The translations under genes were made by a program, and so were the position numbers. Positions 38,100 through 43,309 of a DNA stretch of 64,000 nucleotides are shown here, one piece after another. The DNA comes from Sulfuriflexus mobilis (GTDB lineage Bacteria; Pseudomonadota; Gammaproteobacteria; AKS1): positions 1 to 64,000 of the forward strand of contig NZ_AP018725.1 of the NCBI RefSeq assembly GCF_003967195.1, in the 5' to 3' direction. Each line of letters begins with the position of its first letter. Position 1 is the stretch's first letter. The notes beneath the pieces were generated by a model. It was not told where the DNA came from and did not search any database. It saw only the letters and a list, made by a program, of their open reading frames with translations.

Positions 38100-38621
38100 A
38101 TGATTAAAAGATTTATAAATAGCTTCGGCACTACGATGTATGTGCAAATATGGGAAAAACGCATCAAGGTTACCAATATTGAGACAGGTAAGATATACGA
38201 TGAAGCACCATTGGTAGCGATCGAAACAGTCAATAAAGATAAGAAAGCTGTAAATGCTGTGGGTAATAAAGCAGCGTTGCTAATGGGGAAAAATATTGAA
38301 GTAATTAATCCCTTTTCTCACCCAAGAGTTTTATTTTCAGACTTTCATGTTGCTGAGAAGCTGCTTCAGCATATTTTCAAGCTATTAACAGGTGGAAAAA
38401 TATTCATATTGGCACCAGCTGTGGTTATTCACCCAATGGAAAAAACGGAAGGTGGACTTACCCTGATCGAAGAACGCGCTTTCAGAGAGCTCGCCCTTGG
38501 TGCGGGCGCCCGGGACGTGGTTATTTATCAAGGCTCTCCGTTGCCAATTCATGGATTTAATTACGAGGCAATAAAAGCTATGGATAAAGAATCAACGATA
38601 AATAGGGGCAGTAGTTTTTAA
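38100..38621 (+). CDS. Half-length MreB-like (actin-fold) protein
   Basis: The 173-residue protein follows the N-terminal half of MreB: SFGTTMYVQIWEKRI at the phosphate-1 position (MreB has DLGTANTLIY), then APLVAIE, AVNAVGNKA, a VLFSDFHVAEKLLQHIFK helix matching MreB's VIADFxVTEKMLQHF, FILAPAVVIHPME, and ERAFRELALGAGARDV matching RRAIRESALGAGAREV. It stops where MreB subdomain II would begin, so the phosphate-2 and adenosine motifs are missing and ATP binding is unlikely. A clean start, stop and intact reading frame argue against a random fragment. Function unknown. The DNA is AT-richer than neighbours. Confidence 0.65.
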   Translation: MIKRFINSFGTTMYVQIWEKRIKVTNIETGKIYDEAPLVAIETVNKDKKAVNAVGNKAALLMGKNIEVINPFSHPRVLFSDFHVAEKLLQHIFKLLTGGKIFILAPAVVIHPMEKTEGGLTLIEERAFRELALGAGARDVVIYQGSPLPIHGFNYEAIKAMDKESTINRGSSF

Positions 38622-38733: not shown

Positions 38734-39732
38734 TTACTCTGCCTTCTGCGCCCGATGCAGTAAATCCCGCACGGCCCGATGCGGGTCATGGCCTGCATAG
38801 ATAACCTGGTAGACTTGCTCGCTGATGGGCATATCGACAGCCAGTGACGCCGCTAAATCATGCAGAACTTTTGCCGTCTTGGCACCTTCAACAACCTGAC
38901 CAATATCGATGTAGGCCTGTTCGGCACTGTTGCCGGCGGCAAGGGCCTTGCCAAAGCGGCGATTGCGGGACTGATCATCGGTACAGGTCAGGACCAGGTC
39001 ACCGAGGCCTGCCAGTCCCATAAAGGTTTCGGCCTCGGCACCGAGGCGATGGCCCAGGCGCGACATTTCGGCCAGGCCACGTGTGATCAGTGCCGCACGG
39101 GTATTGGCGCCAAAACCCAGGCCATCGGCGATGCCGGCGGCGATGGCAAGCACGTTTTTTACCGCACCGCCGATCTCAACACCGACCACATCCGTACCGG
39201 TATAGGCCCGGAAGGTTTCGGTGTGCAGGCGCGCGGCAAGCTGTTCGGCAAAGTCGCTATCCTTGGAAGAGACGGTGACGGCGGTAGGCAGGCCCATGGC
39301 AACCTCACGGGCAAAGGTCGGGCCCGATACCACGGCAAGCGGATAGTGCTGGCCCAACTCTTCTTCGGCAATTGCGTGGAGCAACTGGTGGGTGTCGGTT
39401 TCAAGGCCCTTGGTCGCCCAGGCAACACGCTGGCCTTTTTGCAGGAAGGGTTGAATCTGTTTCAGGGTGTCGCGAAACACGTGGCTGGGGACAACGATAA
39501 GCAGGGTTTCCGAAGCGGCAACGGCGGCCTGGGTATCAGGCTCTATCTGCAGGCTGTCAGGAAACGGGATACCCGGCAGATAGCCCTCATTGCATCGCGA
39601 GGCGGCCAGTGCCGCCTGGTGTTCGGGGTTATGTCCCCAAAGCACGGCGGGGCGCTGGTTTTTGGATAACAGGATAGCCAGCGCGGTGCCCCATGAACCG
39701 GCACCGAAGATACTGACGCTGTTGGCATCCAT
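38734..39732 (-). CDS. gpsA: Glycerol-3-phosphate dehydrogenase [NAD(P)+]
   Basis: GpsA makes sn-glycerol 3-phosphate for phospholipid synthesis. The protein shows the N-terminal dinucleotide fold SIFGAGSWGTALAILLSKN, the substrate segment SGPTFAREVAMGLPTAV and the GGAVKNVLAIAAGIADGLGFG region with the catalytic lysine. A GTG three codons upstream is in frame, but GGTGA before the ATG gives a better-placed start, yielding 332 residues. It follows secB by 15 nt, the conserved grxC-secB-gpsA order. Confidence 0.96.
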   Translation of the reverse strand: MDANSVSIFGAGSWGTALAILLSKNQRPAVLWGHNPEHQAALAASRCNEGYLPGIPFPDSLQIEPDTQAAVAASETLLIVVPSHVFRDTLKQIQPFLQKGQRVAWATKGLETDTHQLLHAIAEEELGQHYPLAVVSGPTFAREVAMGLPTAVTVSSKDSDFAEQLAARLHTETFRAYTGTDVVGVEIGGAVKNVLAIAAGIADGLGFGANTRAALITRGLAEMSRLGHRLGAEAETFMGLAGLGDLVLTCTDDQSRNRRFGKALAAGNSAEQAYIDIGQVVEGAKTAKVLHDLAASLAVDMPISEQVYQVIYAGHDPHRAVRDLLHRAQKAE

Positions 39733-39747
39733 GATGGTCACCGCCGC

Positions 39748-40221
39748 TTATTGCAGGGTTTCGCTGCTTGCCGATTCCTGTTCCTGCTGCTGGGCAAACA
39801 GGGCATCGAAGTTAACCGGTGACAACAGTAGCTGTGGGAAGCCGCCGCGGGTTACCAGATCGGATATAACCTCACGGGCAAACGGGAAGAGGATATTGGA
39901 ACAATAGCTGCCCAGCATGTAGGACATTTCTTCATCCCCAAAGCCGGCAACACGGAAAATACCTGCCTGCTGAACTTCGGCGAGATAGGCGGTAGTGTCA
40001 TCATCGACTTTAGCCGTGACCGTTACCATCAAGACGATTTCAAAGACATGCTCATCGAGTGATTTGGAACGGCTTTGTAGTTGCAGATTGATGTTGGGTT
40101 GCCAGTTATCTTCACGGAAGATCTCGGGCGTATTCGGTGTCTCGAATGAAATATCCTTGGTATAGACCTTCTGGATAACAAAGACCTGTTCAGGTGTTGC
40201 GTTTGTGTTTTCTTCGCTCAT
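39748..40221 (-). CDS. secB: Protein-export chaperone SecB
   Basis: SecB is a tetrameric cytoplasmic chaperone that keeps preproteins unfolded and delivers them to SecA. The 157-residue protein has the family segments FVIQKVYTKDISFETPN, QPNINLQL, EVQQAGIFRVAGF, LGSYCSNILFPFAREVISD and GGFPQLLLSPVNFDALF. Length and sequence are typical (E. coli 155). It is in an apparent operon with grxC (29 nt upstream) and gpsA (downstream). Confidence 0.97.
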   Translation of the reverse strand: MSEENTNATPEQVFVIQKVYTKDISFETPNTPEIFREDNWQPNINLQLQSRSKSLDEHVFEIVLMVTVTAKVDDDTTAYLAEVQQAGIFRVAGFGDEEMSYMLGSYCSNILFPFAREVISDLVTRGGFPQLLLSPVNFDALFAQQQEQESASSETLQ

Positions 40222-40250: not shown

Positions 40251-40511
40251 TTAATTCAGGCCCAGCATGGGATCGAGTTCGTCATCAATATCCAGTTCCG
40301 AGAGGTCATCAAAACCGCCAACGTGAATATCATCAATAAATATTTGCGGTACGCTGCTGCGACCATTGGCGCGGGCTTCCATTTCAGTGCGTCGCTCGGG
40401 AAATTGATCAACGCGGATCTCTTCGACTTCGACGCCCTTATTGGCGAGTAACTTCAGGGCGCGTACACAATAGGGGCATGCAGCAGTGCAGTAAACAGTA
40501 ACATGGGGCAT
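40251..40511 (-). CDS. grxC: Glutaredoxin 3 (GrxC)
   Basis: GrxC is an 86-residue dithiol glutaredoxin that uses glutathione to reduce disulfides. The active site is CPYC at 12-15 (VYCTAACPYCVRAL); RSSVPQIFIDDIHVGGFDDL contains the cis-Pro and glutathione-binding residues. An extra Cys at position 8 is found in many GrxC proteins. It lies between the rhodanese gene and secB, as in E. coli yibN-grxC-secB. Confidence 0.96.
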   Translation of the reverse strand: MPHVTVYCTAACPYCVRALKLLANKGVEVEEIRVDQFPERRTEMEARANGRSSVPQIFIDDIHVGGFDDLSELDIDDELDPMLGLN

Positions 40512-40572: not shown

Positions 40573-41010
40573 CTATTTTTTACGGCCATTTTTACTCAGG
40601 GGCAAACTGGCATTTTGCCAGGCCATCACGCCGCCTTTGAGGTTGGAAACGTTTTCAAAGTTATGTTTGCGCAACCAGCCGCATACGGTACCGGAACGTG
40701 CGCCACTGCGGCAACTAACGATAACCGGCTTTTGTTTGTATTTTTCTATTTCAGCAATGCGTTGTTGCACACTGCCCATCGGTATGTGTAGTGAGTTGAT
40801 GATATGTCCTTCAGCGAATTCTTTATCTTCTCGTACATCAATGACGATACCACCCTGGTGGTTAATCAGTTGTGTCGCCTCAGCGGGACTGATCTGTTTA
40901 ATACCGCGAATGACACTTATCAGGTTTGTGCCCGAGAGCATGAGCAGAATAATCAGCAGGGCAAGAAATAGATCCCAGTGGTTAGTGGCGAATTCGATGA
41001 ATTGTTGCAT
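40573..41010 (-). CDS. Membrane-anchored rhodanese (YibN-like)
   Basis: This is a single-TM protein with a cytoplasmic rhodanese (sulfurtransferase) domain. The TM segment is LFLALLIILLMLSGTNLI. The domain has VIDVREDKEFAEGHI and the active loop SCRSGARSGTV, with a catalytic cysteine, unlike E. coli YibN, whose loop appears degenerate. A longer open frame begins 24 codons upstream, but the ATG giving MQQFIEFATNHWDLF matches family starts (145 residues). It lies 106 nt downstream of an ArsR repressor with SqrR-like cysteine spacing, suggesting persulfide-linked control, and upstream of grxC. Confidence 0.88.
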   Translation of the reverse strand: MQQFIEFATNHWDLFLALLIILLMLSGTNLISVIRGIKQISPAEATQLINHQGGIVIDVREDKEFAEGHIINSLHIPMGSVQQRIAEIEKYKQKPVIVSCRSGARSGTVCGWLRKHNFENVSNLKGGVMAWQNASLPLSKNGRKK

Positions 41011-41116
41011 AGTATTTGTCTTGAGAGTCAGAAGTCGTGCTGAAAAAAAGGTATGATGAGAACGATCAGAACAGTCGCTCACCTATGTTACAGATTGTAA
41101 ATGTACCGTCCCTGGA

Positions 41117-41443
41117 TTAGCTACTAGGGTTACAAAAGACTTCACGCATCATGCCTATCAGGCGCAGGGTACGTTCATCACCCACACGATAAAACACGCG
41201 GTTGGCATCTTTGCGCGAAGCGAGAATGCCCTTGTCGCGTAATATCGCCAGATGTTGAGAGATATTACTCTGCGAGGTGCCGACATTTTCGACAATGTCC
41301 TGTACGCTGATTTCTCGTGCACCGAGGGTGCAGAGGATCTTTAGTCGCAGCGGGTGAGACATGGCCTTGAGTGAACGCGAGGCGCGATCGATGTCTTCAT
41401 CACGAGATATAAGCAAGGTATCTATAACTGTAACTGTATTCAT
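41117..41443 (-). CDS. ArsR-family repressor, candidate persulfide sensor (SqrR/BigR-like)
   Basis: This is a 108-residue winged-helix repressor. The ArsR core LKAMSHPLRLKILCTL, the recognition helix TSQSNISQHLAILRDKGIL and the wing ASRKDANRVFYRV are clear. It has exactly two cysteines, C38 and C104, 66 residues apart. In SqrR of Rhodobacter the redox pair C41/C107 has the same spacing and forms a tetrasulfide bridge with reactive sulfur. Metal-site residues of classic ArsR or SmtB (CVC in alpha3) are not seen. A rhodanese gene follows on the same strand, which fits a sulfide-response role. The sensing function is inference. Confidence 0.85.
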   Translation of the reverse strand: MNTVTVIDTLLISRDEDIDRASRSLKAMSHPLRLKILCTLGAREISVQDIVENVGTSQSNISQHLAILRDKGILASRKDANRVFYRVGDERTLRLIGMMREVFCNPSS

Positions 41444-41523
41444 ACTGACTACCTGTATAAATTAACCGGCCAGCGCCGGACTTCCATGTTTGCCCCAAGG
41501 AAATGCAAGGCGCACGTAGTTTC

Positions 41524-41537
41524 TATATGTTCATATA
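41524..41537. promoter_or_regulatory. Candidate operator upstream of the ArsR repressor
   Basis: TATATGTTCATATA is a dyad with 6-bp perfect arms, 81 bp upstream of the repressor ATG, in an A/T-rich stretch. An autoregulatory ArsR site is plausible but unproven. The rest of the 300-nt region to gpmI holds a structured leader and no gene. Confidence 0.4.
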
Positions 41538-41664
41538 TAATAAAAAGGTTATACAATAATGTACCGTTTTTAAAGGAAGTGCAAACGTACGGCACGGGGC
41601 GTGCCGCACGGCCGGAGGCGCTTGTGTTACACTACGCGCCCTTTTGAGGATGACGTCTTTCCCG

Positions 41665-41695
41665 CTTTCGAGTTAGACTTAGTCTAAGACGAAAG
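41665..41695 (+). promoter_or_regulatory. Structured leader hairpin upstream of gpmI
   Basis: CTTTCG..TTAGAC and GTCTAA..CGAAAG form an interrupted 12-of-14-bp stem with a TTA loop. It lies about 50 nt before the gpmI start and downstream of a TACACT -10-like hexamer, so it would be in the 5' UTR. Role unknown. Confidence 0.45.
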
Positions 41696-41743: not shown

Positions 41744-43309
41744 TTGATTCCTAAACCAATGATGCTCATTATTCTGGATGGCTGGGGGTATAGCGAAGAC
41801 CCGGAGGCCAACGCGATCGCGGCGGCCAAGAAGCCCGTCTGGGATAAGCTCTGGAACGATTACCCGCACACGACGATCCGTGGCTCGGGGGCCGAGGTCG
41901 GCTTGCCCGCCGATCAGATGGGCAATTCCGAGGTCGGCCACCTGAACCTGGGTGCCGGGCGCGTGGTGTATCAGGAATTTACCCGCGTTTCGCGCGCCAT
42001 CAAGACCGGATCCTTCTTCAAGAATCAGACCCTGACCGACGCCGTCGACGTGGCGATTGAGAACGACAAGGCCGTGCATATCCTTGGCCTGCTCTCGCCC
42101 GGTGGTGTACACAGCCACGAAGAACATATCCAGGCCATGGTGCGCCTGGCCGTGGAGCGCGGCGCGAAGCGGGTCTACCTGCACGCCTTCCTCGATGGTC
42201 GTGATACCGCGCCGAAGAGTGCAGAGGGTTCCATCAAGGCCATGCAGGCGGTATTCGACGAGCTCGCTAATGGCTGTTTTGCCTCGGTGATTGGCCGCTA
42301 CTACTCGATGGACCGTGACCACCGTTGGCCACGTATCCAGGCGGCCTACGACCTGATCACAGAGGGTAAGGGTGAGTTCACGGCGGCCACAGCCAGCGAG
42401 GCGCTCGAGATGGCCTATGCCCGTGAAGAGACCGATGAATTTGTAAAGGCCACGGCGATTGTCCCGAAGGGCGGCACGCCGGTACAGGTCGAAGACGGCG
42501 ATGTGGTTGTCTTCATGAACTTCCGCTCGGACCGCGCCCGCCAGATCACGCGCCCCTTTATCGAAGAGGATTTTGACGGTTTTAAGCGCGAAAAAACACT
42601 CAAGCTGGGTTCTTACGTCAGCCTGACCGAGTACAAGGAAGACTTTAACGTGCCTGTGGCCTTCCCGCCCGAGCGCCTGAAGAATGTCTTCGGCGCCTAT
42701 ATCTCAAGCCTGGGTCTGCGCCAGCTGCGTATCGCCGAGACCGAGAAATATGCCCACGTCACCTTCTTCTTTAATGGTGGTGAAGAGGACCCGTTCGAGG
42801 GTGAAGACCGCATCCTGGTCAATTCACCGAATGTCGCCACCTATGACCTACAGCCAGAGATGTCAGCCCCGGAACTGACAGACAAGCTCGTCGACGCCAT
42901 CGAAAACGGCAATTACGACGCGATCATCTGCAACTATGCCAACCCCGATATGGTCGGCCACACCGGTAAACTTGAGGCCACGACCAAGGCTATCGAGGCC
43001 CTGGATGCCTGCCTCGGGCGTGTCAAAAATGCCCTGGACAAGGTGGGCGGCGAGATGTTTATCACCGCGGACCATGGCAATGCCGAGCTGATGCGAAACA
43101 AGGAAACCGGTCAACCACACACCGCGCACACGACCAACCCAATACCGCTGATTTACGTCGGTCGTCCGGCCAGCTTTGATATAAACCACGGGGCACTGTC
43201 CGATATTGCGCCGACCATGCTTTATTTAATGGGTTTGCCGCGGCCAGAGGAGATGAGCGGGCCGTTATTGCTGACCCTCGATGCCGACCGCGACGCCGCA
43301 GACGCCTGA
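41744..43309 (+). CDS. gpmI: 2,3-bisphosphoglycerate-independent phosphoglycerate mutase
   Basis: This Mn-dependent glycolytic enzyme interconverts 3- and 2-phosphoglycerate. The 521-residue protein has the N-terminal metal ligand in [11 protein letters not shown] and the catalytic serine S62 in [21 protein letters not shown]-type residues in [18 protein letters not shown], and C-terminal [10 protein letters not shown]. The best frame opens with TTG after GGAAATAAG. That start puts the nucleophile at residue 62, as in the Bacillus enzyme; the next ATG is five codons in. It begins the gpmI-envC-ctpA-yibQ cluster. Confidence 0.95.

Follow-up and report, generated by a model that had tools for sequence, protein, structure and literature searches.

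Among the ArsR-family repressors that respond to reactive sulfur, the closest described counterparts of the protein considered here are HlyU, YgaV, BigR and SqrR. HlyU of Vibrio cholerae has only two cysteines, C38 and C104, which persulfides convert into a tetrasulfide, and it is unreactive towards GSSG and H2O2 (PMC10509353). Sulfide treatment of YgaV also yields a tetrasulfide bridge, and both YgaV and SqrR bind heme in addition (PMC9774250), so that the signal of the protein considered here could also be wider than persulfide. The target of BigR is the operon of a fused sulfurtransferase/dioxygenase (PMC5823870). As to the rhodanese that will be discussed together with the repressor, E. 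coli YibN is known as a partner of YidC (PMC12282094), and in an E. coli strain from which eight rhodanese genes had been removed, the level of cellular sulfane sulfur was not increased by yibN (PMC10215317). Little is known about how sulfur-oxidising gammaproteobacteria sense the sulfane sulfur inside their cells.

Here, we analyse a locus of Sulfuriflexus mobilis, whose genome carries both dsrA and soxB, within a window of 64,000 nucleotides. A literature search, for which subscription papers were mostly out of reach, found no report of an arsR gene in the yibN-secB locus. What is new here is the ArsR clade itself, its near-universal link to sulfur oxidation of the Dsr type, and the association of the repressor with an intact active site of YibN.

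The repressor gene, arsR (41117..41443, minus strand), encodes a winged helix-turn-helix protein of 108 residues, which belongs to a so far uncharacterised clade among the dithiol sensors of reactive sulfur. It is followed on the same strand by yibN (40573..41010), grxC for glutaredoxin 3 (40251..40511), secB (39748..40221) and gpsA (38734..39741), and the open reading frames thereby confirm the order arsR, rhodanese, grxC that an earlier note on this DNA had given. The open frame of the rhodanese reaches back to a GTG at 41082, while its homologues begin at the ATG at 41010, which corresponds to a protein of 145 residues and a gap of about 106 bp from arsR. Running in the opposite direction are gpmM (41744..43309, plus strand), which borders the arsR regulatory region, and an envC-type gene. 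In 100 of the 101 loci with enough downstream sequence, yibN lies directly downstream of arsR on the same strand, and grxC was found by tblastn in 46 of about 103 arsR loci. As to the suggestion in the earlier note that the secB-grxC-gpsA region might be tied to sulfide stress, the link of the repressor to the rhodanese is strong, whereas the whole secB-grxC-gpsA block is connected by co-orientation only. The window also contains, at 38100-38621 on the plus strand, a short MreB-like protein of 173 residues that matches the first part of MreB only.

The rhodanese has an N-terminal membrane helix and a single rhodanese domain, with the catalytic Cys100 in an active loop, CRSGARS, that is intact, as had been noticed previously. 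It is 35% identical to E. coli YibN over the full length, and 27% identical to E. coli YgaP over the domain only. All features of the YibN type were found: the N-terminal membrane helix, the rhodanese domain, the adjacent grxC-secB-gpsA and the divergent gpmM. In E. coli K-12 the order is gpsA-secB-grxC-yibN / gpmM-envC-yibQ, with arsR absent. The full-length match together with this gene order identifies the rhodanese, on sequence grounds, as the YibN orthologue rather than YgaP. The YgaV/YgaP pair, to which the two genes had been likened, is therefore a parallel repressor-rhodanese arrangement and not the same pair. In the alignment, VSCRSGARS of the window protein stands opposite VVDGSGMQC of E. 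coli YibN, from which the normal catalytic cysteine is missing, in agreement with the published result on sulfane sulfur cited above.

We consider it probable that arsR and yibN are under the control of a self-repressing, persulfide-responsive ArsR switch, in which both the sensing and the DNA binding are predicted. By analogy with the characterised relatives, from which the dimer, the repression, the polysulfide bridge and the release from DNA are all carried over, an ArsR dimer would bind an AT-rich site over its own promoter, at about 41535-41560, and keep arsR-yibN low; by read-through, grxC-secB-gpsA would perhaps be kept low as well. When persulfides or polysulfides rise, a polysulfide bridge would form between C38 and C104 of one subunit, the bridged ArsR would let go of the DNA, and the membrane rhodanese YibN would be made. 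Cys100 of YibN would then take sulfane sulfur and pass it on at the inner membrane, possibly with GrxC as a partner, and any acceptor named for this sulfur would be a guess.

The DNA upstream of arsR contains a conserved 26-bp block, ATTATTGTATAACCTTTTTATTATAT (41535..41560, minus strand), and the stretch ATTATTGTATAATGTTTTATTAATAA is common to 78 of 97 loci at this position (fitted model score >8 bits). Most of the 26 positions of the block model are conserved, to a total of 27.5 bits, and they contain a -10-like hexamer, TATAAT or TATAAC, the latter being the form in the window. In the family set, a score of at least 15 was found upstream of arsR in 22 of 46 cases, part of which had also trained the model, and upstream of an arsR-less yibN in 1 of 53; in about half of the family-level arsR set the block is weak or missing. 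We regard it as the candidate arsR promoter/operator, parts of which may be a plain -10 element, since the hexamer inside the block means that operator and promoter are not separable by sequence. The hexamer could also be taken to indicate that the block is the arsR core promoter only and that the repressor acts elsewhere. This is rather unlikely, because the conservation goes well beyond the hexamer and because loci without arsR almost always lack the block.

The palindrome that the earlier note had reported upstream of arsR is a different element. It is indeed present, as the inverted repeat TATATGTTCATATA (41524..41537, two 6-base arms with a 2-base spacer), and one end of the conserved block falls within it. 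However, about 21% of shuffled 80-bp stretches contain a repeat as good as this one, and conservation does not extend beyond the genus: the full TATATGTTCATATA is found in this genome only, and the shorter ATATGNNCATAT in two relatives. It was rejected as an operator on the ground of this restriction to the genus. A further palindrome, TTAGACTTAGTCTAA, was observed in the gpmM-arsR interval at 41673-41687 and is possibly a control element on the gpmM side; of 63 such intervals, 27 contain TAGA-N5-TCTA, which was seen nowhere else in the same loci.

The occurrence of the repressor was surveyed in 274 gammaproteobacterial genomes, 130 of which have an ArsR orthologue. It is present in 89 of the 94 genomes with dsrA and in 41 of the 180 without, and in 98 of the 114 with soxB. 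At the family level the odds ratio between the ArsR orthologue and dsrA is 64, a link that is affected by kinship; on gene trees the pairs go the same way and are few in number. Five dsrA genomes are without the orthologue. Three of these have a more distant ArsR relative, which in one case is a divergent ArsR (54%) in the yibN-grxC-secB-gpsA place; the locus has thus been preserved despite the divergence of its repressor. Of the other two, one is 78% complete and one has a congener that carries the orthologue. The orthologue is also retained in three dsrA genomes of only 1.0-1.1 Mb. Its presence in nearly all genomes with the Dsr pathway, which we take to be sulfur-oxidising, and its survival in genomes of about 1 Mb make the ArsR a strong candidate for a core sensor of sulfur oxidisers.

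The same distribution also speaks for a reading in which the ArsR is a global regulator of sulfur oxidation, acting on dsr, sox and sqr, with yibN no more than an adjacent gene. The degree of conservation also favours such a role: the median identity among orthologues is 86% for ArsR, compared to 73% for GpmM, 56% for GpsA, 52% for SecB and 45% for YibN. A single target does not explain this extreme conservation; it may reflect targets that are still hidden, or a strict chemical constraint. The distribution of the block, on the other hand, makes global control unlikely. In the 3.1-Mb genome the block is the sole match with no mismatch, and allowing one mismatch adds 5 matches, compared to 3 in the reversed control. 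Upstream of dsrA in 19 genomes and in the sox region it scores overall no better than in shuffles; single regions, at least six of them, do beat their own shuffles, yet their scores stay far below those of the arsR promoters, and they were not counted as sites. Across 56 genomes the near-matches, arsR promoters apart, are not clearly above the reversed control, and a 14-mer of the block has 7 exact matches, 5 of which are arsR promoters. The lack of convincing recurrence near dsrA or elsewhere favours a local, self-controlling switch. As a separate observation, ATCCCnnnnGGGAT and ACCCCATnGGTAGGGT-like palindromes, together with CCTAGACT, recur across families upstream of dsrA in the 19 genomes, a pattern reminiscent of a conserved dsr promoter that carries a site for a different regulator.

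The translated frame of the window ArsR has two cysteines only, C38 and C104, which are 66 residues apart and coincide in the alignment with the sensing cysteines of SqrR, BigR, YgaV and HlyU. The earlier claim of a SqrR-like cysteine pair is thus borne out by both the sequence and the alignment with known sensors. Conservation of the pair in orthologues had been set beforehand as a test, and both cysteines are invariant in 105 of 105 orthologues (identity >60%), among which no other position has Cys in more than a few sequences. This invariance across families makes the protein features more than chance.

An alternative is that the dithiol senses general thiol oxidation, such as H2O2 or disulfide stress, in the manner of RexT, and that yibN-grxC is a thiol-repair unit. 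It is true that two such cysteines can make a disulfide, as reported for BigR and seen in the disulfide crystal of SqrR C9S, and that grxC often comes next in the locus. However, the two cysteines occupy the same positions as in the persulfide group, a group reported to be distinct from the cluster of peroxide sensors (PMC10509353), and the occurrence of the gene tracks dsrA/soxB and the rhodanese, whereas many loci lack grxC. We therefore find general thiol sensing quite improbable.

The persulfide-responsive switch is also consistent with the family and fold assignments. The window ArsR matches PF01022 above the cut-off, and its best sequence matches among solved structures are BigR, YgaV, HlyU and SqrR; with the BigR equivalog NF040642 it scores 80.1 bits, below the curated cut-off of 155. 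The AF2 model (mean pLDDT 85.7) places C38 within the helix H31-40 and C104 at the end of the helix H90-104, in line with the conserved pair of the sensor group, which lies in the second and the last helix of the domain. It is closest to HlyU, BigR, SqrR and YgaV (VIA Z 14-15.5, rmsd 1.2-2.9 Å over 92-96 residues), but the metal sensors CzrA and AntR, which share the fold, come close in score, and the fold alone therefore does not tell the signal. The usual default of an ArsR annotation, a metal or arsenic sensor, would agree with this shared fold and with a match to the general metalloregulator model NF033788, but it is highly improbable given that the CxC metal motif, sought in the alpha-3 region, is not present (REISVQDIV stands there), that there is no further Cys for a thiol site, that the nearest sequence relatives are sulfur sensors, and that the neighbours are not efflux genes.

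In a phylogenetic tree with long branches and a bootstrap that had not settled, the window ArsR, its orthologues and a set of paralogues of 50-60% identity form one clade (support 100/98) apart from SqrR, BigR, YgaV and HlyU, and SqrR pairs with another sequence at 100/99 instead of with the window ArsR. Considering this separate clade and the sub-cut-off BigR score, we infer that the protein works like SqrR or BigR, with its sensing predicted, but is neither of the two.

The genome holds a second ArsR of the same clade at C1:2510099-2510395, which is 55% identical, has both cysteines and lies about 3.5 kb from a sulfide:quinone oxidoreductase-like gene. Its relatives adjoin a response-regulator-like gene and in some cases also a sensor-kinase-like gene. 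At about 981 kb of C1, a 233-residue open frame combines an ArsR domain with a weak rhodanese match, possibly as an ArsR-rhodanese fusion.

The state of the YibN active site was compared in one genome per family of the class, the families lacking arsR being those with yibN in the same neighbourhood. The C-x4-[RK] loop is kept in 54 of the 57 families with ArsR beside YibN but in only 8 of the 59 without, and the catalytic cysteine in 57 of 57 and 47 of 59, respectively. The Fisher p value for the loop against ArsR presence is about 1e-20, with no correction for kinship. Trees built from concatenated SecB, GpsA and GpmM imply at least 16-18 changes of the ArsR state (a SecB-only tree was too weak for the paired test). 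Among the supported independent pairs, the loop goes the same way as ArsR in 5.4 of 7 with FastTree (opposite 0.1, median p 0.06) and in 2.8 of 4 with IQ-TREE (opposite at most 0.1). The paired tests hence point the same way, but the pairs are too few for significance; the co-occurrence figures are not independent, and their statistics are corrected for phylogeny only in part. In genomes that lack ArsR, the YibN active site has usually decayed.

A broader proposal, which we put forward tentatively and see as nearly evenly balanced, is that an undescribed subfamily of predicted persulfide sensors, near-universal in Dsr gammaproteobacteria, controls a competent YibN, and that loss of this repressor accompanies the decay of YibN. 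If true, this would explain why YibN in E. coli is a membrane-insertion partner without the normal catalytic loop. It would also provide a testable reason for the damaged E. coli active site, namely that an intact YibN persists where the sulfur switch does.

Compared to the known systems, the window ArsR is most similar in structure to HlyU of V. cholerae and V. vulnificus, with 36-37% identity and, in V. cholerae, the same cysteine numbering, but HlyU belongs to another clade and acts on hlyA, whereas the neighbour here is a membrane rhodanese. With SqrR of Rhodobacter capsulatus, SoxR and sHdrR it shares the cysteine spacing, the fold and a sulfur-oxidising host; SqrR differs in its separate clade, in a third cysteine, C9, and in its deduced site, ATTC-N8-GAAT as quoted in PMC9774250, which is unlike the window block. 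BigR of Xylella, Acinetobacter and Agrobacterium gives the highest PDB score and has aligned cysteines, but the window protein falls short of the BigR cut-off. In E. coli YgaV-YgaP, a membrane rhodanese likewise directly follows the repressor, and the two repressors are 41% identical, but the membrane part of YgaP is C-terminal and YgaP is not the orthologue of the window rhodanese. E. coli YibN, finally, has no arsR at its side and has lost the normal catalytic cysteine, but it is the orthologue and stands in the same gene neighbourhood.
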